From Leclercia adecarboxylata (GTDB taxonomy: Bacteria > Pseudomonadota > Gammaproteobacteria > Enterobacterales > Enterobacteriaceae): a stretch of 64,000 bases of DNA. A model generated the notes under the pieces. That model saw only the letters and a program-made list of their open reading frames with translations, did not search any database and was not told the DNA's origin. Numbering within the stretch: the first letter of the stretch is position 1; the number at the start of each line of letters is the position of its first letter. Of the stretch, positions 5,984 to 64,000 are shown piece by piece. The translations under genes were made by a program, and so were the position numbers. The DNA lies in assembly GCA_901472455.1 (NCBI GenBank), contig LR590464.1, positions 2,108,001 through 2,172,000 on the forward strand, read 5' to 3'.

Positions 5984-6469
5984 CTAGATGTCGAGAGCAG
6001 CAAGAATAGAGGCTTCCAGTTTTTTCCGGGGTGGTGAGCGGTGCAAAACGCTTGATGGGTTTGCCGTCGCGTCCGATCAGGAACTTAGTGGAAATTCCAC
6101 TTGATCCGCTTACCCAGCACGCCGGGTAATTCGTCTTGCAGGTAACGAAACACCGGGTGCGCCGTTGGGCCGTTAACGTCCACTTTCTCGAATATCGGAA
6201 AGCTCACCCCGTAGTTGATCTGACAGGTCTGCGTGATGTCGTCGGCATTGCCGGGTTCTTGCTTACCGAACTGGTTGCAGGGAAAACCCAACACCACCAG
6301 CCCCTGGTCGGCGTACTTTTTATAAAGCTTTTCCAGGCCGGCGTATTGCGGTGTAAAACCACAGTGGCTGGCGGTATTCACCACCAGAACCAGCTTACCT
6401 GCATAGTCGGCCATCCGGGATAAGCTGGCCGCGCAGGCTGGTGGCAGAAAGTTGATGAAAGGTCGTCAT
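5984..6469 (-). CDS. Glutathione peroxidase family protein, frameshifted
   Basis: Thiol peroxidase reducing hydroperoxides in the cytosol. Starting at 6469 (MTTFHQLSATSLRGQLIP) and crossing one error near 6418, it reads NTASHCGFTPQYAGLEKLY, with peroxidatic Cys in place of selenocysteine, then the GFPCNQFGKQEPG motif and the catalytic WNF(T)KFLIGRDG motif. The latter is interrupted by a frame error near 6090. It ends at 5984 after ILAALDI. About 160 residues, normal for the short bacterial Gpx type, and closer to that type than to BtuE. Confidence 0.85.
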
Positions 6470-38859: not shown

Positions 38860-39888
38860 TTAGCGGATCTCAATTTCAGGAACGGCTGACATCCCAACGC
38901 GCAATAATTTTGCATCGGGCTGATTACCATCCAGCACTATTTTTACCGGTAAACGCTGAACGACTTTAGTAAAGTTACCAGTTGCATTGTCTGGCTGGAT
39001 GGCAGAAAACGTTGCGCCGGTTGCAGGAGCGATACTATCGACATGTCCAGTAAACTTTTTGCCAGGCATGGCATCAATTTTAATTAAAACTTTCTGCCCC
39101 TGCTGAACATTTGCCAGCTGTGTTTCAAGATAGTTGGCAATGATGTAAGTTTGATGTAGCGGAACCACAGCCAGCAGACGTGTCCCTGCGTTAACGTAGG
39201 CACCGAGGCGCACCGAACGCTGGCCTACCATCCCATCGACTGGTGCAACAATACGCGTATAAGAAAGATTAACCCTCGCCTGACTGACCTTTGCCTGCGC
39301 GACTGCAACATCGGCTTCCGCCTGACGTAATGCAGCCCTCAACACGCCTACCTGTTTTTCTGCTGAGGTCAGTGCAGCTTCGTTTTGACGAACGACTGCG
39401 GATGCAGAACGCTGCGTTGAATGGGCTTTTTGTTGATCGTCCGCAGCGACGGTACCTCTTTGATAAAGCTTGTTAAAACGTTCAGCGTTCTGACTGGCGT
39501 ACTGCGCCGATGCCTGACTGGCTAAAAGGGTCGCTTTTGTCTGAGCAATAATGGATTGTTGCTGCTCCAGTTGTGCAAGGCTGCTCAGGTGTTTTGCTTC
39601 ACTAAGCTGCAAATTCGCCTGCGCCATTTCAAGCGCTATTTTGTAGTCACGGTCATCCAGCGTGGCCAGTGTTTGCCCTGCTTTAACGCGTTGGTTATCT
39701 GCGACATAGATATTTTTGATATATCCCGATACTTTTGGTGCCACCAGTGTGTAATCCGCATTCACATAGGCATCATTAGTACGGGTATCATTATTCAGCA
39801 TTGTCGACCAGACAAAAAATATCATCGTCATCATCAGGATTAATAATGCGCTGAGCAGAGTCGTTCTTCTGGATACAGGAAATTTCAT
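38860..39888 (-). CDS. HlyD/EmrA-family membrane fusion protein
   Basis: Intact, 342 residues. One N-terminal membrane helix (TTLLSALLILMMTMIFFVWS), TNDAYVNADYTLVAPKVSGYI and VADNQRVKAGQTLATLDDRDY (lipoyl-like half), a long coiled coil (about residues 85-215), then ARVNLSYTRIVAPVDGMVGQ, the second lipoyl half, and a beta barrel. Periplasmic adaptor of a tripartite drug efflux pump; it is the second gene after the MFS transporter, 28 bases apart. Confidence 0.92.
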   Translation of the reverse strand: MKFPVSRRTTLLSALLILMMTMIFFVWSTMLNNDTRTNDAYVNADYTLVAPKVSGYIKNIYVADNQRVKAGQTLATLDDRDYKIALEMAQANLQLSEAKHLSSLAQLEQQQSIIAQTKATLLASQASAQYASQNAERFNKLYQRGTVAADDQQKAHSTQRSASAVVRQNEAALTSAEKQVGVLRAALRQAEADVAVAQAKVSQARVNLSYTRIVAPVDGMVGQRSVRLGAYVNAGTRLLAVVPLHQTYIIANYLETQLANVQQGQKVLIKIDAMPGKKFTGHVDSIAPATGATFSAIQPDNATGNFTKVVQRLPVKIVLDGNQPDAKLLRVGMSAVPEIEIR

Positions 39889-55684: not shown

Positions 55685-56302
55685 TCACACCTCCTGCGGA
55701 TTAGCCAGATAGCCGGTGGTATCACCCGTGGGTCGGCTGTTGGCATTGGGTTTAATGACGATAGACGGCTTCGTGAAGTGCGCCGACGGCAGCGGCGCGA
55801 CAGCGGCCAGTTTGCCGTGCTTCTTGCGCAGCTCTTCAATCGGGCCGAAGTCCAGCGCCCGCAGCGGGCAGGACTCGACGCAGATCGGCTTCTGGCCCTC
55901 CGCCACCCGCTCATGGCAGCCGTCGCACTTGGTCATATGGCCTTTGGCAGCGTTGTACTGCGGGGCACCGTACGGGCAGGCCATGTGGCAGTAGCGGCAG
56001 CCGATGCAGACATCCTCATCCACCACCACAAAGCCGTCTTCGCGCTTGTGCATCGCCCCGCTCGGGCAGACCTTGGTGCAGGCCGGGTCCTCGCAGTGGT
56101 TGCAGGAGATGGACAGATAGTAGGCAAACACGTTCTGGTGCCAGACGCCGTTGTCCTCCTGCCAGTCGCCGCCCGCGTACTCGTAGATGCGGCGGAAGCT
56201 GACATCCGGGGTGAGATCCTTGTAATCCTTGCACGCCAGCTCACAGGTTTTGCACCCGGTGCAGCGGCTGGAATCAATAAAAAATCCATACTGAGTGGTC
56301 AT
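55685..56302 (-). CDS. dmsB: DMSO reductase iron-sulfur subunit DmsB
   Basis: Intact, 205 residues. Four ferredoxin-type Cys clusters: CTGCKTCELAC, CNHCEDPACTKVCP, CIGCRYCHMACP, CDGCHERVAEGQKPICVESCP. It carries electrons from DmsC to the molybdenum subunit. It lies 10 bases after the dmsA stop. Confidence 0.93.
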   Translation of the reverse strand: MTTQYGFFIDSSRCTGCKTCELACKDYKDLTPDVSFRRIYEYAGGDWQEDNGVWHQNVFAYYLSISCNHCEDPACTKVCPSGAMHKREDGFVVVDEDVCIGCRYCHMACPYGAPQYNAAKGHMTKCDGCHERVAEGQKPICVESCPLRALDFGPIEELRKKHGKLAAVAPLPSAHFTKPSIVIKPNANSRPTGDTTGYLANPQEV

Positions 56303-56312
56303 CGGCTACTCC

Positions 56313-57360
56313 TTACGCCTTCTCGATTTGCACCAGATTGGTGTGTTGTGGATTGCCCTTCGCCAGCGGCGACGGGACGGTGCGTGGTCAGGGTGTTCAT
56401 GCAGGCACCGTGGTCAACGCGGTCACCCTGCATATCGGCCTGATGCCACGCCCCCTGGCCCATGGCGCTGACGCCCGGCATGATCCGCGGGGTCACTTTG
56501 GCGGGAATGCGCACTTCGCCGCGGGTGTTGAAGACCCGCACCATGTCGCCGTTTTTAATGCCGCGTTTCTGCGCATCAACCGGGTTGAGCCACACTTCCT
56601 GGCGGCAGGCGGCCTGCAGCACGTCCACATTGCCGTAGCTGGAGTGGGTGCGGGCTTTGTAGTGAAAGCCGAACAGCTGCAGCGGAAACTGACCGCGATC
56701 GTCCGAATCCCAGCCTTCGAAGGTCGAGGCATACACCGGCAGCGGGCTGATCGTTTCGTCCTCCTTCAGCTCCCAGGCGCGGGCGATCTCTGCCAGCCGA
56801 CTGGAGTAGATCTCGATTTTGCCTGACGGGGTTTTAAGCGGATGAGCCTCGGGATCCTCGCGGAATTTCTTATAGGCCACGAAGTGACCGTTGGGGTCCT
56901 TGCGTTTATAGATGCCCATCTCTTTTAGCGCTTCGTAAGAGGGGAGTTGTGGATCTTTGGCCACCATTTTGGCGTACAGATACTGCAACCACTCCGCCTG
57001 GGTGCGGCCTTCGGTAAAGCGTTGGTGGATATCCGGCCCGAGGCGTTTCGCCACTTCGCTCATGATCCAGTAGATGGGTTTACGTTCGAATTTCGGCGCG
57101 GTTACCGGCTGGAGGAAGATCAGATAGCCCATATTCCCCGCGTAATCGTTGGGAATGATGTCTTCCTGTTCGACGGTCATCAGATCTGGCAGCAGCAGGT
57201 CGGCATATTTCGCCGACGAGGTCATGAAGTTGTCGATCACCACAATCATTTCGCACTTGCGCTCATCCTGCAGAATGTCGTGGGTTTTATTGATGTCTGA
57301 ATGCTGGTTGATGATGGTGTTGCCAGCGTAGTTCCAGATGGACTCCACTGTCAGACGGAT
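56313..57360 (-). pseudogene. dmsA: DMSO reductase catalytic subunit DmsA, 5' part lost at an insertion junction
   Basis: Only the C-terminal 340 or so of about 810 residues remain: WNYAGNTIINQHSDINKTHD, FMTSSAKYADLLLPD, NDYAGNMGYLIF, PSGKIEIYSSRLAEIAR, FGFHYKARTHSSYGNVD, the molydopterin-binding MPGVSAMGQGAWHQAD and NTLTT, then one frame error near 56385 before LVQIEKA. Homology to DmsA stops at about 57340 and the following plus-strand DNA is phage-like. The twin-arginine leader, the iron-sulfur site and most of the cofactor site are missing, so no functional enzyme can come from this copy unless the assembly is wrong. Confidence 0.88.
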
Positions 57361-57405
57361 GGACGGACTTGAAGTAGTTGACTCAACGCTACTTAAGGTC
57401 CTGAT

Positions 57406-59002
57406 ATGACTGACATTAACCATGACAACACTGTATATCCATCCAGTTCTTTCTCTGGGTCTCCCTATCTGTATGGGCAAGTCTACACCCCAAGTCCTGA
57501 CACAAGGCTGACACAAATCAATCTACTCGGCGTAGCTAAGCCTCAGTTAGTCCGTAGAGCCAATGGTCGATATACTATCCGCTTCAGACTCAAGGGACAG
57601 ACCACACCGTTTCTTTCAGTATCGACCCGCAGCACAGACAGGAGAGTAGCCACAATGCGTCAGAGAGAGCTTGCAGCCACAGCTAAGGCCTTCATGTTGG
57701 ATAGACCTGAAGTCTCGCTACAGGAGCTTACAGAGCACCTCCGGTCTATGGCTGAGCAGTTCCTGACAGACGCTAGTGACGATTACTGGAATGGACTTGA
57801 GGTCGCTACTTTGGTGGACGAGAAGTCCAACCTGAAGGAGCTAGCCGCTACGCAAGCCTTAAGTCTGGACCAGCAGAAGGGCATAAGGTTAGCGCTTGAA
57901 GTCCTGACCGCAGCACAGCAGAGGGTAGACACTGGTGATACCTCTGTCTGATTAAGCTGATTGATGATAATAACCATACTGATTACTCAACTATTAGGGC
58001 GACTCTACGTCAATTCTGAAGAATGGAGCAGGGGGATAGACCAGTAGTTTTCACACAGGAGCGCCAACCTGAGGTCACTATCTGTAGTTTTTCTGAGCTA
58101 GTGTCCTCGCTGCTGGCTGAGAAGGTCCAGACCCTGAAGTCCTCCAGCTACAAGGACCTCTCGTCCTCACTGAATACCGTCTCCCGGTTCCTGCCTGAAG
58201 ACATGGACCTGATGTCTCGCTCTGAGTGGCTGGCTGTCAGGGACGCTATGCTGGCTTCTGAGGTGAGACCGTCGACGATTAACAAGCTGCTGACTAAGGC
58301 GAAGATGTGTCTGGACTATGGCCTGATGAATGGGCAACTTGAGGGCCGCAACCCGATTGAGCGCATGAAGTTAACTAAGGATGTAGACTCCAAGCGTAGA
58401 GCATTCACTGACGAGGAGCTGGGAGAGACTTCTTGTCCGGGTAGAGGCTGAGTATCAGTTCACGCGACACACCGCTCACACGACCTCTGAGGCTCGCAGA
58501 TGGGCGACTCTGGTATCTGTGGGTCACTGGAGCTAGGTCTGCTGAGGTCTGCCACCTGATTAAACGTGACATTGTAACGATTGATAAGATGGTCTGTATC
58601 GACATTAATGAAGATGGGGACGGGAAGTCCGTAAAGAACAAGCATTCAGTCCGACTTGTACCGCTGACCGATGGCGCTTATGGGTTTGACCTGACGTCCT
58701 TTCTGTCGTGGGTAGACGCTCAGCCTGATGATGGTCCTCTCTTCGGGATGACACCGAGCGCCTACTCTAGCTGGTTTAACTCTCGGGTCCTGACTGAGGC
58801 CCTGCCAGACGCCGATAACGTCTCGCTTCATAGTCTGAGGCATTGGCTGGCGACCCGTATGAAAGAGCGTGGTGTCAATCTGGTGGACGCTCAGGGCATC
58901 TTAGGTCATAGCTCGCAGTCAATCACTTACGACCTGTACGGGAAGGGGCACGCGGTTGGACGTCTGGCTGATGCGCTAAATCTGGCACTGGTAGGGATGT
59001 GA
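57406..59002 (+). CDS. int: Large tyrosine recombinase (integrase), frameshifted
   Basis: About 530 residues. N-terminal arm-binding-like domain (LVRRANGRYTIRFRLKGQTT, LSVSTRSTDRRVATMRQREL); core-binding SAM-like domain from about 58080 (FSELVSSLLAEKVQTLKSSSYKDLSSSL in parts; RPSTINKLLTKAKMCLDYG); catalytic domain with Arg I in TGARSAEVCHL (about 58527-58559), beta-hairpin Lys in SVKNKHSVRLVPL, HSLRHWLATRM (His/Arg II) and GHSSQSITYDLYGKG (His III and nucleophile Tyr). Frame errors near 57950-58020, 58425 and 58525. It begins only about 45 bases from the dmsA junction and points inward. Confidence 0.88.
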
Positions 59003-59015
59003 GTGGAGAATCGTA

Positions 59016-59129
59016 ATGGTTAAAGAGTTTAAAGTCCGTAAAGAAAATAAGCCGTCATATGAATGTATGATTACTGCTGAAACCTGTTTGGGGTTAGCAG
59101 GTCTGGCGACCGAGGAGGTGGGAGCGTGA
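59016..59129 (+). CDS. Small ORF, 37 residues, coupled to the HEPN gene
   Basis: MVKEFKVRKENKPSYECMIT.., preceded by GGAGAATCGTA. Its TGA overlaps the GTG start of the HEPN gene (GTGA), so translation is probably coupled. It could be an antitoxin-like partner or an excisionase-like protein, but the sequence shows no motif. Confidence 0.45.
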   Translation: MVKEFKVRKENKPSYECMITAETCLGLAGLATEEVGA

Positions 59130-59572
59130 GCACCATTATCGTACAGGTATCATATTCACTGCCTTTGCTATTGAGGCTATGTTCATCTTCTATAGAAAAC
59201 AGGTTGACCCCGGTTACGATAAGACGAAACCAGAGTGCAGAAAGACAATGCACAAGAAAACGTTTAAAATTGTGCGGCTTTACTAATTATATGGGGACAA
59301 AACCTTATCAAATTATCAAAGAGTGTCTTGAGGTAAGAGATGCAATTGCTCACGGCGATTCGTACACTTCCAGCTTTAATTTCTCAGCGGATCATTTGGA
59401 TAACCAAGACGATATTGCAAGAGGTGTCTTGGCGGTAAACTCCGAACAATTCCGGGGATTAACTGCCGACCTCCTTAAGAAATACATTGAGATGGCAAAG
59501 CATATTGACCATGAGATTTATGATAACGGTTACAGGCCTTCTGAAGGAGGACCTCCCGGCAGCCGAGCGTAG
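59126..59572 (+). CDS. HEPN-like protein with RX4H motif, frameshifted
   Basis: About 148 residues. After correcting a frame error near 59145, HHYRTGIIFTAFAIEAMFIF is a helix with the pattern of HEPN proteins; after a second near 59270, LCGFTNYMGTKPYQIIKECL, then EVRDAIAHGDSY with the catalytic-type R-X4-H, then a third helix (LTADLLKKYIEMAKHI). HEPN proteins are often RNases in toxin-antitoxin or abortive-infection systems. GTG start with GAGGAGGTG upstream. Position next to the integrase fits cargo defence against rival phages. Confidence 0.65.
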   Translation: MSTIIVQVSYSLPLLLRLCSSSIENRLTPVTIRRNQSAERQCTRKRLKLCGFTNYMGTKPYQIIKECLEVRDAIAHGDSYTSSFNFSADHLDNQDDIARGVLAVNSEQFRGLTADLLKKYIEMAKHIDHEIYDNGYRPSEGGPPGSRA

Positions 59573-60104
59573 AAACCTGATGTTAGCTTTCGGGGTCAGT
59601 GGGGTGTCAATGTGGCCTAGCGTCTGAACGTAGGGGCTTAACTAGCATTTTAAGGATAGATATGGTTCTGCGAAATATTATAATTGATATAGTTTACAAG
59701 GGTTACAATTAGCGGGCATTATACCCTCACTATAGGGAAGGGGACTAAACTATCACTATAGGGGACCCCTAGCCCTCGACCCATACACACATTCATTTAG
59801 TCTCAGGCTTCCGGTAGCGGACCGATTGGAAACCATCCGCATACGCCTAGTGTTAAATCACCTTTGTCTGAGACCATTCCCTTTAACGTAGGTTATCTTC
59901 CCTTTTGACAGGCGGGGAGCAGAAGACCACATCCGACTTTAAGTTGGCTCTGTGATAATCGCTGCGCGGATAACTGAAGAACCAAGACACCATTGCTGAG
60001 GTCTGCCATCCATTTGTGGACAGGCGGAAACTCAAAGAGGTTAGACCAGTGGTGGTGTCTGAGGTTGGAGCTTTGAGTCCTGACCAGCAGGCTGGGAGGA
60101 GACC
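59573..60104 (+). other. Non-coding region around promoter pair A
   Basis: About 530 bases without a convincing ORF. It holds a host-type -10 candidate (TATAAT, 59679-59684, without a good -35), promoter pair A, and one copy of the 13-base direct repeat GGTCAGTGGGGTG (59594-59606; second copy 60613-60625). In T7 tandem promoters with adjacent AT-rich DNA mark the primary replication origin; the AT-rich stretch 59640-59720 just upstream makes an origin possible here. Confidence 0.45.
59719..59767 (+). promoter_or_regulatory. Tandem T7/T3-type phage promoters, pair A
   Basis: First: TTATACCCTCACTATAGGGA (59719-59738). It has the -11 to -8 CCCT of the T3 promoter and the TATA/GGGA initiation region of T7. 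Second, 26 bases downstream: ACTATCACTATAGGGG (59749-59764), with TATCACTATAGGG and fewer specificity bases. Such promoters are read by single-subunit phage RNA polymerases, not by the host enzyme. Confidence 0.88.
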
Positions 60105-60233
60105 ATGAGTTTATCTTATTATGGATTGTGTTATCACAATTCCAATAAGAAGAACTTTAAGTCCAGCCTCCAGTCCTGTCAGCCCGAAGTAAACTATGGT
60201 CGCTATGATGTGGTCTCCATGCTTCGGGTCTAA
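60105..60233 (+). CDS. Small ORF, 42 residues
   Basis: MSLSYYGLCYHNSNKKNFKS.. ending SMLRV. A very strong ribosome site GGGAGGAGACC lies right before the ATG. No family recognised. It sits between the two promoter pairs and is a candidate early gene transcribed from pair A. Confidence 0.5.
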   Translation: MSLSYYGLCYHNSNKKNFKSSLQSCQPEVNYGRYDVVSMLRV

Positions 60234-60247
60234 CTGGAGGTCAGATT

Positions 60248-60394
60248 ATGGCCTTATCAGGTAGCAAATCTTATACCCTCACTATAGGGACTGGACCCTT
60301 AGCTATCACTATAGGGACCATACATTCCGCCTCTGGTCTTGATGCGTCAAGTTATGCGGAAGCTCTCCCGACATTAAGTCTTTCTCCTAAGTAA
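60248..60394 (+). CDS. Small ORF, 48 residues, overlapping promoter pair B
   Basis: MALSGSKSYTLTIGTGPLAI.. ending LSLSPK; ribosome site CTGGAGGTC 6-7 bases before the ATG. Codons 8-26 are made of the two embedded phage promoters (SYTLTIGT and AITIGT). It is either a real short gene or a chance reading of the promoter array. Confidence 0.4.
   Translation: MALSGSKSYTLTIGTGPLAITIGTIHSASGLDASSYAEALPTLSLSPK
60270..60317 (+). promoter_or_regulatory. Tandem T7/T3-type phage promoters, pair B
   Basis: First: CTTATACCCTCACTATAGGG (60270-60289) plus A; second, 27 bases downstream: AGCTATCACTATAGGGACC (60301-60319). Same two-part arrangement as pair A, almost the same spacing. It directs transcription rightward into the regulator and capsid genes. 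Confidence 0.88.
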
Positions 60395-60660
60395 GCAAGG
60401 CCAGCAGTCCGCCTCTGTCAGACTCCCAGCCCGTTAGCGTTCTCGTGTCTTCATTTTGACTTGGGTCTATCGCCGCTCACCATCTGGACGTCGGACATGC
60501 TGTCTTGCACCTTTATCATTACTGGTCATCGCAGACCACATCACAATTACCTCAAGTCATTCTGTTTGCGTCCTGTTGCCTGCTGGTCTCCCTTTACGTG
60601 GGGGCTTGAGTAGGTCAGTGGGGTGCGACTTCAGGGTGCAAACAAAAGGAGTACACGTAA

Positions 60661-61365
60661 ATGTCCCAACCAAGAAATCAGCATCATTAACCTCGACCAG
60701 CTTGTGTCCATGACCTCAGTTGAAATTGCGGAGCTGACAGGCAAGGATCACCGAAATGTCCTGCGCGATATTCGCAATATGGCTGGAGGAGCTTAACGCG
60801 CTCAAAACTGAGCTGGTTGGCGAGGAAGTATACAAGGACGCTAAAGGCGAGAGCCGGGTAATGTACCGTCTCGACCGTAAGCATACTTTTATTCTGGTCG
60901 CTGGCTATTCCGTTCACCTCCGCGCCAAGTGTTACGGACCATATTCAGACGTTAGAGCGTCGAGTCCTTCAACTGGAAGACCAGAAGAAGCGAGCAGCCA
61001 TTCAGTCTGCTAACCGTCGAGGCGTGACTTGGGGTGACTACTGCAAAACCTATGGTCTACCTGCTCAGAAGCTAATGACCGCACTTCTTCAGCATCGTGG
61101 TCTCTTTCGTAAGAATCCAATCAGTAACGAGTGGTCTGTAAATCCAAAGTATTCCGACTGCTTCCGTATCATTAAGCCGTCAGACCAGAAGTTCTCAGCA
61201 GGTGGTTATAACTTTCGCTTCAACGCTAAGGGATTGGAGGTCTTCGGTAAGCCTGCGATAGTCGATAAACTGCGAGGCATCCTTATTGCCTTCACTGGCA
61301 CCGACCAGCAGAAGCAAGAGCATCTCCTGAAGCAGGCCCAATCCGGCAAGCTGGAGGGACTCTAA
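60661..61365 (+). CDS. Rha/antirepressor-type phage regulator with KilAC-like C-terminus, frameshifted
   Basis: About 234 residues. After an error near 60672: EISIINLDQLVSMTSVEIAE, LTGKDHRNVLRDIRNMLEEL (the Rha DNA-binding-like domain), then YRLDRKHTFILVAGYSVHLRAK; an error near 60932 and a C-terminal ANT/KilAC-type domain: GVTWGDYCKTYGLPAQKLMTALLQHRGLFRKN, ending QSGKLEGL. Another error near 60780. In prophages and satellites such proteins act as antirepressors or regulators; here it may time excision or gene expression after helper infection. Confidence 0.8.
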
Positions 61366-61366
61366 G

Positions 61367-61558
61367 ATGATTGACCCGCGCACACCTGAGGGCCGCATGA
61401 CTCTCCGTTACCGTGGCTACCAGACTGAAGTCATCTTGAAAGAGCTTGGTCTAGACCCGGAAGATGAGACCCGCCAGCACCAATCACGAGACGAGCTGAT
61501 AGCGCAACTGGTCGCTATGAAACTGCCGTCAGCTAGCAAGCTAGCGCCTAACCGTTAG
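61367..61558 (+). CDS. Phage-type hypothetical protein, 63 residues
   Basis: MIDPRTPEGRMTLRYRGYQT.. starts one base after the stop of the regulator gene, with GGAGGGACTC as ribosome site. Soluble, charged, no family recognised. Same operon as its neighbours. Confidence 0.6.
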   Translation: MIDPRTPEGRMTLRYRGYQTEVILKELGLDPEDETRQHQSRDELIAQLVAMKLPSASKLAPNR

Positions 61559-61593
61559 CAGCTCACCTACTTAATACCTAATTTTAAACCTTT

Positions 61594-61657
61594 TGAGATG
61601 ACCGATGCGGGGAGACGCCGCAGGACTAAACACGCCTGTGGTCGACCGATAGTCTCA
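61594..61657 (+). other. Structured RNA element upstream of the scaffold-like gene
   Basis: Outer arms TGAGA (61594-61598) and TCTCA (61653-61657), inner hairpin TGCGG-GGAGACG-CCGCA (61607-61622), and the direct repeat GACCGAT (61600-61606, 61644-61650). In T7-like phages such structures are often RNase III processing sites; that role here is a guess. Confidence 0.4.
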
Positions 61658-61679
61658 ACTCTCAAGAGGAGTATTCATT

Positions 61680-62172
61680 ATGTTGTTCAATAACCAAGAC
61701 TGGAAACTGTCTGTCACCGACATCAATCTCTACGAAAACACTGTGAGTCTGGACGGTCAGTCCTACCCACTGTCCTTCGCTATTAAGACCCTGATTCCGG
61801 GCTACCTGTCAGGACTGCCTGCCACCAGCCGCGAGTCCATGGAATTACTGGAAGCTCTGGCTGAAGCTGGCGTGACCATTGGAAACTTCTTCAGCAATGA
61901 CCTGATGACCGCCTACCAACGTCGCCAGCAGAACAAGCGAGCCGAGGCTGAGCGTATCGCTAAAGAGCAGCGCATTCAGGCTGAGCGTATGCGTGAAGAG
62001 AACATGACCGATGCAGAGTGGCAGAAAGAGCTACAGCGCCGCGAACAGGTCAAAGCTGAGGCGCCGGACCTATGGTGAGAACCTCCGCAGTGCTACCCAT
62101 TCCGCTGGTCGCTCCCGTGCCGCTATTGTCGCTGACATTGAGTCAGGCGGTAACTGGATGGACAGCCTCTAA
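61680..62172 (+). CDS. Coiled-coil protein upstream of capsid, possible scaffold, frameshifted
   Basis: About 163 residues. MLFNNQDWKLSVTDINLYEN.. with a beta-rich first third, then a strongly charged helix (AYQRRQQNKRAEAERIAKEQ, RIQAERMREENMTDAEWQKE). One frame error near 62062; the corrected end is RRTYGENLRSATHSAGRSRA.. to SGGNWMDSL. AAGAGGAGTATTC gives a strong ribosome site. In T7 the scaffold gene stands just before the capsid gene, and the helical, Glu/Lys/Arg-rich character fits, but there is no sequence motif to prove it. Confidence 0.55.
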
Positions 62173-62190
62173 GACACAGACACACAAGTG

Positions 62191-62211
62191 GTCCTGACCC
62201 GATGTCGGGAC
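62191..62211 (+). terminator. Hairpin before the capsid gene
   Basis: GTCCTGAC-CCGAT-GTCGGGAC, an 8-bp stem with one G-T pair, no T-run. Either a weak terminator or an RNA processing site just before the capsid ribosome site. Confidence 0.45.
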
Positions 62212-62247
62212 CCACAGTATCCAAACTAATTTAGGAGATTGATTATT

Positions 62248-63237
62248 ATGACTATGACTAAAGACGCTTTCCAGTTCGGCATTGAGCCTGTTCGTATCAC
62301 CGACACCGACAACATTCAGGTCAATGAAGGTCTGCCGACTAACGCTGACCCGCAGGTCTATGCCCTCCAGTTAGCTAAGACGGTTAAGGCTATGCTGAAC
62401 GGTGTACTTAAAGACGCTCAAGAGAACATCCCGTTCCCTGTAGAAGTCCTGCCTACCCGCAATAGCCTGCCTACCCCAATCATCGCCCACACTCTGTCTG
62501 ACCGCTCTGTGGTCGTCCCTGTACGCGGTGGTGAGCGACCTGAAGTCGTGACCGTTCCGTCTGGTCAGGAGATTGTCGTCGAACCTATCGAACAGGCAAT
62601 CCTCATCTCGGAGCAAACTAAACTGTGGGACGCCAAGTCCTCCACTGGTTTCACTCATGGCACACTCCAGCAGGACGCTATGAACATCTGTGAGAATGTG
62701 GTCCGTACCATCAACGCTCGCATGGTTGACGTTCTGGAGTCCTCCAAGCTGCTGAAGACCGTAGAGCTGCCAGTCCTGACTGGAAGCCTGACCACTAAGG
62801 CAGACGCTATCATGGACGCTCTGTTTGAGAACACCGAGTCCTCTTTCGGCTCTGAAGTGTCTGATTACGGCATCATCGCCCATGAGTCCCAACTGAAAGC
62901 GCTGTCCCGTCTGGCTGCTAAACAGGGCTTCTCTGGTGAAGACGCTATCGTGGATATGCTGGGTACCGACATCGCGTATTACAACGGTGAGGACAAAGGT
63001 GTGTTCATGCTGGCTAAACGCTTCACGGCCCTGAGCTTCGGCTGCTTCCGTCACGACGGTGAGAATATTACGGTCGTCCTTTCACGTGATGGCGACTCTC
63101 AGTCCCACGACTTGGAAATCCTCGGTAAAGTGTTCGTTGTCGCTGAAGCTGCTACGACCGTCAAGATGGGCACTGGCTCAGCTACTGCCGTCCTGCCTGT
63201 AGTCAAACGCCTGAAGTTCACCAAGACCGAAGCGTAA
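62248..63237 (+). CDS. Probable HK97-fold major capsid protein
   Basis: Intact, 329 residues from MTMTKDAFQFGIEP, ribosome site TTAGGAGATTG. Layout of an HK97-type shell protein: helical N-arm (VYALQLAKTVKAMLNGVLKD), extended beta loop (LSDRSVVVPVRGGERPEVVT), long spine helix (GTLQQDAMNICENVVRTINA), an A-domain with ADAIMDALFENTESSFGSEV, IAHESQLKALSRLAAKQGFS and a closing beta segment (DLEILGKVFVVAEAATTVKM). The segment IIAHESQLKALSRL is a typical capsid helix pattern. I do not see close similarity to T7 gp10. The lack of any portal or terminase nearby is unusual for a phage and normal for a capsid-encoding satellite. Confidence 0.65.
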   Translation: MTMTKDAFQFGIEPVRITDTDNIQVNEGLPTNADPQVYALQLAKTVKAMLNGVLKDAQENIPFPVEVLPTRNSLPTPIIAHTLSDRSVVVPVRGGERPEVVTVPSGQEIVVEPIEQAILISEQTKLWDAKSSTGFTHGTLQQDAMNICENVVRTINARMVDVLESSKLLKTVELPVLTGSLTTKADAIMDALFENTESSFGSEVSDYGIIAHESQLKALSRLAAKQGFSGEDAIVDMLGTDIAYYNGEDKGVFMLAKRFTALSFGCFRHDGENITVVLSRDGDSQSHDLEILGKVFVVAEAATTVKMGTGSATAVLPVVKRLKFTKTEA

Positions 63238-63242
63238 GACCA

Positions 63243-63482
63243 ATGGGTAAGAGCATTAGTAAAGGCTTCAGGTCCATCGCCAAGGGCCTGACAGGTGGTG
63301 GTGGGACTCAAGGTGGGGCTTCGGTCCCGCCTCCTGTAGCTCCTCCTGTAGCTCCTCCAGATGACGCTCAGCAAGCTGTAGTCGATACCCAAGGTCAGGA
63401 GACCGAGGGAGGTAAGACCATGAGCAGGGGTAAGTCTGGACTGAATATCAGCAGGACTTCAGGTGGTGGGTTATCACTGTGA
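63243..63482 (+). CDS. T7 gp7.3-like virion/tail assembly protein
   Basis: 79 residues. MGKSISKGFRSIAKGLTGGG, a proline-rich middle (VPPPVAPPVAPP), and the ending RGKSGLNISRTSGGGLSL. T7 gp7.3 has the same plan: a basic MGKK..KAVKK start, a low-complexity centre and the end KKSLSVARSSGGGINI. gp7.3 is a small T7 virion protein needed for adsorption or tail assembly. It starts 6 bases after the capsid gene, a different order from T7. Confidence 0.75.
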   Translation: MGKSISKGFRSIAKGLTGGGGTQGGASVPPPVAPPVAPPDDAQQAVVDTQGQETEGGKTMSRGKSGLNISRTSGGGLSL

Positions 63483-63637
63483 TTAAGACATCCATACAGC
63501 CTGTGGAGGGTGGACGATATCAAGCAACAATCTGGATGACACGCAGAGTCTATAAGCGGCTATGCTGGTCACTGGCTGAAGCTGAACAATGGGTGAGACG
63601 TAAAGTGCCTACCGTTCAATCATTCCAATCATCATGA
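63479..63637 (+). CDS. Small phage-type ORF, 52 residues
   Basis: GTG start overlapping the stop of the gp7.3-like gene: VIKTSIQPVEGGRYQATIWM.. AEAEQWVRRKVP. The coupled start and Trp-rich regular composition make it likely real. No family recognised. Confidence 0.5.
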   Translation: MIKTSIQPVEGGRYQATIWMTRRVYKRLCWSLAEAEQWVRRKVPTVQSFQSS

Positions 63638-63694
63638 TAACTGTGGTCTGGACCTGAGGGTCTGGACCTCATTACTGGTATGGTAGTATGCAGT

Positions 63695-63850
63695 ATGTCT
63701 ATGACTTCCGCAGACCTGAAGTCCCTCCTGACTCTGGTCTATAAACTCGTGTTCCTCTCTGTGGGTCTCTACATGGTCCTCTCTGGTCGACTCGGTGTGG
63801 ATGTGTTCGACACTCTGTCTAAGGCTGTGGGTGGACTTCTAGGTCCTTAG
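63695..63850 (+). CDS. Small single-helix membrane protein, 51 residues
   Basis: MSMTSADLKSLLTLVYKLVF.. with one clear membrane helix (VYKLVFLSVGLYMVLSG), a charged N-terminus and an amphipathic C-terminus (VFDTLSKAVGGLLG). It resembles small holin-like or pinholin-like proteins in plan but has no weighty ribosome site. The last 150 bases of the window after it hold no ORF I can support. Confidence 0.45.
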   Translation: MSMTSADLKSLLTLVYKLVFLSVGLYMVLSGRLGVDVFDTLSKAVGGLLGP

Positions 63851-64000
63851 GTTTGGACTCACAGTGGGACCGATGGTTTCTGACAGAAAAATGTGAATGA
63901 CCATCTAATACATTAAGCCAGCAGACTTCCCCCCCATAGGCCCACCTCAAGTCCAGACCGAGGCCACCGGGGGTCCTGACCAGCCGTCTAGACATCCCGT

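Follow-up and report, generated by a model that had tools for sequence, protein, structure and literature searches.

A probable satellite of Kayfunavirus-type T7-like phages with a predicted capsid gene in the Leclercia adecarboxylata chromosome

A 64,000-nucleotide (nt) stretch of the Leclercia adecarboxylata chromosome (assembly GCA_901472455.1, contig LR590464.1, positions 2,108,001 to 2,172,000; hereafter the window, numbered from its first letter) ends within a small integrated element that is very probably a satellite of Kayfunavirus (K1F-type) phages. The element carries promoters and a near copy of the packaging junction of these phages, by which a helper would switch it on, package it and provide the tail, and the head would be built from the element's own capsid protein, which is predicted to have the HK97 fold. 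The sequence itself holds an integrase with attachment (att) repeats, helper-type promoters, a copied junction and a narrow element length of 6.2 to 6.8 kb, with no match to helper core genes; from these we infer packaging by the helper and use of the own capsid. The original prediction, which was made from the letters of the window, had proposed a satellite of T7-like phages. This interpretation is supported here, and at the level of sequence the helper is narrowed from T7-like phages to Kayfunavirus, because promoters of two specificities, identical over 22 to 23 nt, occur together with a copied concatemer junction.

Helper-type promoters and a copied packaging junction

Four exact copies of TCACTATAGGG were found in the window, compared with 0.03 expected by chance, and they are the sole four in the 5.06-Mb genome, in agreement with the T7/T3-type promoters noticed earlier. 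They form two tandem pairs, each with one ACCCTCACTATAGGG (type A) and one CTATCACTATAGGG (type B), which read towards a Rha/KilAC-type regulator, a protein of 163 amino acids (aa), the capsid candidate and a homologue of T7 gp7.3.

59727..59737, + strand: T7-type promoter core, type A (ACCCTCACTATAGGG); identity with GW1 promoters over 18-19 nt
59753..59763, + strand: T7-type promoter core, type B (GGACTAAACTATCACTATAGGG); identity over 22 nt with the promoter that precedes gene 10 in EcoDS1 and CR44b
60279..60289, + strand: second type A core; identity with one GW1 promoter over 23 nt
60306..60316, + strand: second type B core; 16 nt identical to EcoDS1 promoters

The phages with matching promoters were Citrobacter phage CR44b, Escherichia phage EcoDS1, Cronobacter phage GW1 and their kin, and the EcoDS1 record assigns the genus Kayfunavirus. 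T7 itself has neither type A nor type B promoters. An exact CACTATAGGG was present at most 5 kb upstream of the capsid gene in 17 of 23 related loci (designated by L numbers); four had a site with one mismatch only, and two had none. A third promoter type, ACCCACACTATAGGG, was found in L017, L018, L060, and L227 and occurred in 9 and 11 copies in two other T7-like phage records, and L226 showed two CACTATAGGG sites of a fourth type. The tandem arrangement suggests that one satellite could answer two classes of helper polymerase. In addition, a word like CACTGTATCGCACTACAGGGCTGGACA recurs approximately 0.9 to 1.4 kb upstream of the capsid gene in L010, L016, L021, L024, L060, and L227.

The copied packaging junction is the strongest evidence for the satellite reading and did not figure in the original prediction. 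In T7-like phages, the terminase makes the genome end at the concatemer junction.

63855..63965, + strand: copy of the Kayfunavirus concatemer junction; equivalent of the phage terminal-repeat start at 63903/63904

The elements occupy two kinds of insertion site (ynfE and tRNA-Gly), and the right-hand blocks of both types are alike and collinear with the Kayfunavirus concatemer junction: a GATGAGTTTT stretch is followed by GACC, the terminal-repeat start TCTCACAG, and then CCCCATAG and CAGACCAAAGG. The EcoDS1 record places its terminal repeat at 39075. TCTAATA stands at the terminal-repeat start in 21 of 22 loci, with L019 deviating; the L019 block used as a query matched 220 phage records, the best of which was K1F (E 5e-6). 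All 22 loci scored 31 to 42 against the EcoDS1 junction, compared with 20 or less for 554 other EcoDS1 windows examined as a control, and none of 200 shuffled sequences per locus reached the observed score; the loci are related to one another, and counts such as 22 of 22 do not represent independent events. The junction is present once per element. The L226 junction matched best that of T7 (39, versus 30 for EcoDS1; control maximum, 16), the L228 junction was nearer to EcoDS1 (30), and the L227 junction was weakly nearer to T7 (26; control maximum, 19). The left end of the element gave only chance-level matches to phage ends.

Element boundaries and gene content

The element spans 57330 to 64104 in window numbering, with its right end 104 bases past the end of the window and a size of 6.76 kb (about 6.8 kb). 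It is bounded by 11-bp direct repeats and flanked on either side by the two halves of a reductase gene.

56299..57329, - strand: interrupted dmsA/ynfE-type reductase gene, C-terminal portion; E. coli ynfE shows the same arrangement
57330..57340, no strand: attL core, 11-bp direct repeat AGTTCCAGATG
64094-64104, just beyond the window (94 bases into the next stretch, L004): attR core, second AGTTCCAGATG copy

The N-terminal half of the dmsA/ynfE-type gene lies at approximately 105-1507 of L004, directly after the attR core. The integrase at 57406 had been described as neighboring a broken dmsA, and extension to the right recovered both the second gene half and the direct-repeat att sites. Beyond 64000, the 104 element bases were followed by the other reductase half and then by host genes, and no T7-like genome was found there. 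An assembly artefact at the junction, the alternative left open at first, is excluded by E. coli CT29 and EC21Z-137, in which ynfE is interrupted by the same element (99.6% identity, with 100% of the query covered). The left junctions of these two copies were 100% identical to each other, and the layout was inspected for CT29.

In the window copy, the integrase, cargo, Rha/KilAC-type, and 163-aa open reading frames (ORFs) are split by frame breaks, and all four are annotated as intact in the near-identical CT29 copy. The two copies differ by 6 substitutions and 14 short length differences, and the host assembly, a single contig with a 5.06-Mb chromosome, has an estimated completeness of only 78%; the frame breaks are thus likely, though unproven, sequencing errors. 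Genes outside the element also appear frame-broken, for example, rspA at L004:3750-4965, as is expected of uncorrected long reads. A separate prophage-like region, starting with an integrase, lies at L004:6175-20000 beside rspB, approximately 6 kb from the satellite end.

The gene order is integrase, cargo slot, the two promoter pairs, Rha/KilAC-type regulator, 63-aa ORF, 163-aa protein, capsid candidate, and gp7.3 homologue, followed by two small ORFs, a conserved noncoding block and att.

57406..59002, + strand: tyrosine integrase (about 530 aa where intact; three ORF pieces here); phrog_1, E 3.6e-9 and 2e-18 for two pieces
59016..59627, + strand: cargo slot with a HEPN-like protein (202 aa where intact; frame-broken here); other genes in sister elements
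60661..61365, + strand: Rha/KilAC-type regulator (233 aa where intact; frame-broken here); PF09669, E 5.5e-17 on L006
61367..61558, + strand: small conserved ORF (63 aa); by eye, the divergent L224 has a comparable ORF of 67 aa in this position
61680..62172, + strand: 163-aa protein where intact (frame-broken here), directly upstream of the capsid gene; putative scaffold or size-setting role by position
62239..63237, + strand: capsid candidate (329-332 aa); HK97 fold by prediction
63243..63482, + strand: T7 gp7.3 homologue; named host range/adsorption or virion assembly protein in PHROGs/Pfam
63695..63850, + strand: 51-aa ORF with a hydrophobic stretch, kept in 12 of 14 ynfE-type loci; no PHROG match

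The intact integrase of L006 matched PF00589 (E 4.2e-12), and the Rha/KilAC regulator and the gp7.3-like protein of the original prediction were both confirmed by profile matches. The gp7.3 homologue matched the phage gp7.3 profile over its full length (E 6.3e-13; hhalign, 98%) and PHROG 1320 (E 1.8e-11), and its match to Pfam VirionAssem_T7 was under the curated cut-off (E 0.0057). Of 22 loci, 7 have an intact copy, and L024 and L058 have a visibly truncated one.

Among 53 annotated EcoDS1 proteins compared with the element by tblastn, only gp7.3 matched at E <0.001 (4e-5). The best of the remaining proteins was gp11 (E 0.04), which was taken as a chance match. No match in the element was found to helper polymerase, portal, capsid, scaffold, tail, or terminase genes, consistent with the absence of a self-sufficient T7-like gene set reported at first. 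Searches of phage sequences with the whole element by blastn and with its gp7.3 homologue by tblastn gave no match. Neither AlpA/Stl-type control nor a primase-replicase was among the Pfam/PHROG matches of 10 window ORFs (the 63-aa ORF and shorter ones lay outside the scan).

The predicted capsid, the family and its cargo

The capsid candidate showed no sequence match, and a PDB sequence search was empty. Two AlphaFold2 models were built (mean pLDDT, 44 and 64.5), and the best matches of both were HK97-fold shells; the first model was judged too poor, and the HK97 fold is predicted with moderate confidence. Comparison with gp10 gave no hmmsearch match and an hhalign probability of 0.3%, also with divergent relatives added, and the protein is therefore not detectably derived from T7 gp10. 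The HK97-fold-like character proposed earlier is supported by the models. The possible scaffold is a conserved ORF immediately ahead of the capsid gene, but it showed no similarity to T7 gp9 by hmmsearch or hhalign, also with divergent relatives added, and a 16-nt word in common with gene 9 was insufficient for a claim of homology; a scaffolding role is suggested by position only. The capsid and its upstream partner are kept together down to 28 to 41% identity, and tblastn found no capsid relative in 50,697 phage records. The capsid alignment used (A2) held 9 of 32 protein hits, omitting P0023 (different N-terminus), fragments and some near-full-length hits, and was enlarged by five locus translations (A4). 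The longest contigs of clusters P0001, P0005, P0006, P0007, P0012, P0018, and P0024 were 6.4 to 7.8 kb, about the unit length of the element; as a hint only, these may be free or packaged copies in the sequenced samples.

Relatives were sought in enterobacterial genomes, as the original prediction had proposed, and a family was found in several genera and at two sites. Of 5,426 complete E. coli genomes, 309 contained a DNA relative of the capsid gene, and in 302 of these the match covered 80% or more of the gene. Relatives were also present in Leclercia, Buttiauxella, Enterobacter, and Citrobacter and in one Enterobacter plasmid record. By protein name, they further occurred in Shigella flexneri, Citrobacter koseri, and Rouxiella. 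Among genomes sampled from the family, 9 of 392 had the capsid, and an order-wide survey with the enlarged alignment found 2 of 394, the source genome being included in both counts. Annotated stretches were inspected for 14 E. coli matches and 1 plasmid match of 314 matching genomes. The same gene order recurs in several genera and at both insertion sites; the ynfE type has the 11-bp core, and the tRNA-Gly type has a 17-bp repeat. Left junctions were counted at ynfE in 148 and at tRNA-Gly in 271 of the E. coli genomes; the total exceeds the 309 capsid carriers, and therefore part of these left ends must come from copies without the capsid or from different elements. The tRNA-Gly copies of L016, L017, and L060 (L018 on one side) are bordered by actS and by a decayed type III secretion cluster, and the satellite therefore belongs to a hotspot at this site.

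Fourteen elements free of insertion sequences measured 6,321 to 6,764 bp (mean, 6,581) despite differing cargo. This set omits loci with insertion sequences or losses (L017, 9,085 bp; L018; L021; L059), loci with no measured pair of att cores (L009, L010, L014), and three that are listed separately: L011 (6,327 bp), L228 (6,160 bp), and L226 (12,486 bp, out of range). L226 (2466-14952) is a divergent 12.5-kb relative at tRNA-Gly with an integrase, regulators, a homologue of the 163-aa protein, a capsid (28% identity) and a homologue of the T7 internal virion protein gp16 split over two ORFs. Different single T7-type virion proteins in relatives would fit a tuning of helper particles.

The cargo slot varied among loci. 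The window cargo, assigned to HEPN earlier, matched PF18735 only weakly (E 0.088-0.099, under the curated cut-off) and contains an RxxxxH motif like that of HEPN proteins; PADLOC reported nothing for it. HEPN-like cargo was found in 5 of 22 loci and HNH cargo in L020, L023, and L057, and other loci hold unknown ORFs. The DUF4145 cargo of four sister elements corresponds to PD-T7-4 by the PADLOC model (E 1.7e-97 and 1.3e-102), a published anti-T7 gene from a selection for phage defence (Vassallo et al. 2022, PMC9519451); the passages of that source which describe the gene give no satellite setting. The window holds the HEPN-like gene instead. PD-T7-4 lies behind or overlaps the satellite integrase, the overlap being 8 bases in L017 and L060.

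L016:4748-5401, L017:2057-2716, L018:3457-4116, L060:4725-5384: PD-T7-4

In the sample of 392 family genomes, PD-T7-4 was present in 11, with the capsid gene within approximately 3 kb in 4 of them. Of the other seven, four (L258, L259, L260, and L261) had a satellite-type integrase and three did not; the capsid gene was in none of these seven stretches, of which L258 stops at a contig end. T7-type promoters were also present in L259, L260, and L261. L260 (5244-10591; 5.35 kb between tRNA-Gly cores) carries an invertase-type recombinase, and the capsid-less element of L261 starts at 6352. Because these three loci pair a satellite-type integrase with T7-type promoters and no capsid was seen, capsid-less relatives probably exist, and the three may be capsid-less satellites using T7-type helpers. 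The junction of L261 was marginal (18; control maximum, 15), and L259 and L260 scored only 14.

Such capsid-less relatives, with the same integrase type, PD-T7-4 and T7-type promoters, would suit a Kayfunavirus satellite whose DNA fills unmodified helper heads as concatemers or in several copies, as reported for PICMIs, with the capsid-like protein disturbing helper assembly or serving as a minor component. The element length of approximately 6.6 kb, about one sixth of the 39- to 40-kb helper genomes, also fits this arrangement. However, T7-type terminases cut at the junction that each element carries, and a full-length HK97-fold protein conserved together with its partner, in elements of narrow length, points to a shell of its own; we regard unmodified heads as rather unlikely. 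An immobile antiphage island, whose helper promoters would only set off a defence gene and a capsid-like decoy upon infection, would account for PD-T7-4 in the cargo slot of the sister elements, and expression by a T7-like polymerase suits an infection-triggered response, although the promoters sit behind the cargo slot and not before it. Paired att repeats, two target sites, several genera and the copied junction fit a transmitted element, and the island is very unlikely. A decayed temperate T7-like prophage that has lost its missing genes is scarcely plausible: it would explain the integrase and the T7-family virion gene gp7.3, and a T7-like phage with temperate features is described in the LUZ100 source (PMC10134795), but the gene order is the same in several genera and at two sites, gp7.3 alone of the EcoDS1 set was detected, and the capsid is not detectably derived from gp10 and has no relative in the phage records.

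Proposed life cycle and comparison with known systems

On infection, the helper RNA polymerase would transcribe the right-hand genes of the satellite directly. The element would excise and be replicated into concatemers by helper enzymes, and the helper terminase (gp18/gp19) would cut at the copied junction and load satellite DNA through the helper portal. The DNA would enter small heads built from the satellite's own capsid protein, for which the 163-aa protein may serve as scaffold, and helper tail and core proteins, together with the satellite gp7.3, would finish the particle. The cargo gene may guard the host or the satellite against T7-like phages. We further consider it likely that the family is a widespread, unrecognised satellite lineage of T7-like phages, with its own non-gp10 HK97 heads, tandem promoters that read the identity of the helper polymerase, packaging by the helper terminase at a copied junction, a home for PD-T7-4, and sister lineages that switch helper through promoter and junction.

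T7 and its kin are textbook virulent phages, and a satellite with so few genes, if true, would indicate what functions are enough for parasitism of a T7-like phage. It would also explain the frequent origin of PD-T7-4, which was found experimentally. An exact helper prediction follows, testable with phages already in collections, and the share of E. coli genomes with capsid relatives suggests that strains used in phage work may carry the element unnoticed.

As in satellites generally, the element is discrete and integrated, with att repeats and an integrase; it lacks genes for a complete virion or self-replication, and its cis signals (promoters and junction) are those of a specific helper. 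P4-like satellites and PICIs are marked by AlpA/Stl-type control and a primase-replicase, neither of which was among the Pfam/PHROG matches of the window ORFs. cf-PICIs carry further packaging genes, whereas the present element is 6.76 kb long, has no portal or terminase match, and has a virulent T7-like helper type.

P4-like satellites, PICI, cf-PICI, PLE, PICMI, VEIMEs, and Tycheposons are among the kinds named, with a few more, in a review of 2024 (PMC11389934). Literature searches of PubMed Central yielded no satellite of T7-like phages; preprints and most subscription papers lie outside this scope, and priority is uncertain. LUZ100 combines T7-family genes with lysogeny features (PMC10134795), but it is a phage. 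The element gave no match to the core genes of T7-like phages (those for RNA polymerase, DNA polymerase, portal, terminase, and tail), and its right flank is host DNA. The PLE of Vibrio cholerae is a satellite of the virulent phage ICP1 with small heads (PMC10945586), but it remodels hijacked phage coat proteins and averages 18 kb (PMC10803314). The PICMIs of Vibrionaceae are likewise small satellites of virulent phages with a defence gene and depend on helper particles; they are without capsid-remodelling genes and adjoin fis, and AlpA plus primase served as markers in the search for them (PMC10803314). In contrast, the present element lies at ynfE or tRNA-Gly and has a capsid gene, and neither AlpA nor primase appeared in the Pfam/PHROG scans. 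cf-PICIs average 14 kb and use temperate helpers (PMC10803314); they are integrated satellites that make their own capsid (PMC10803314, PMC11389934), as the present element would do if its capsid candidate has the predicted HK97 fold and forms particles.

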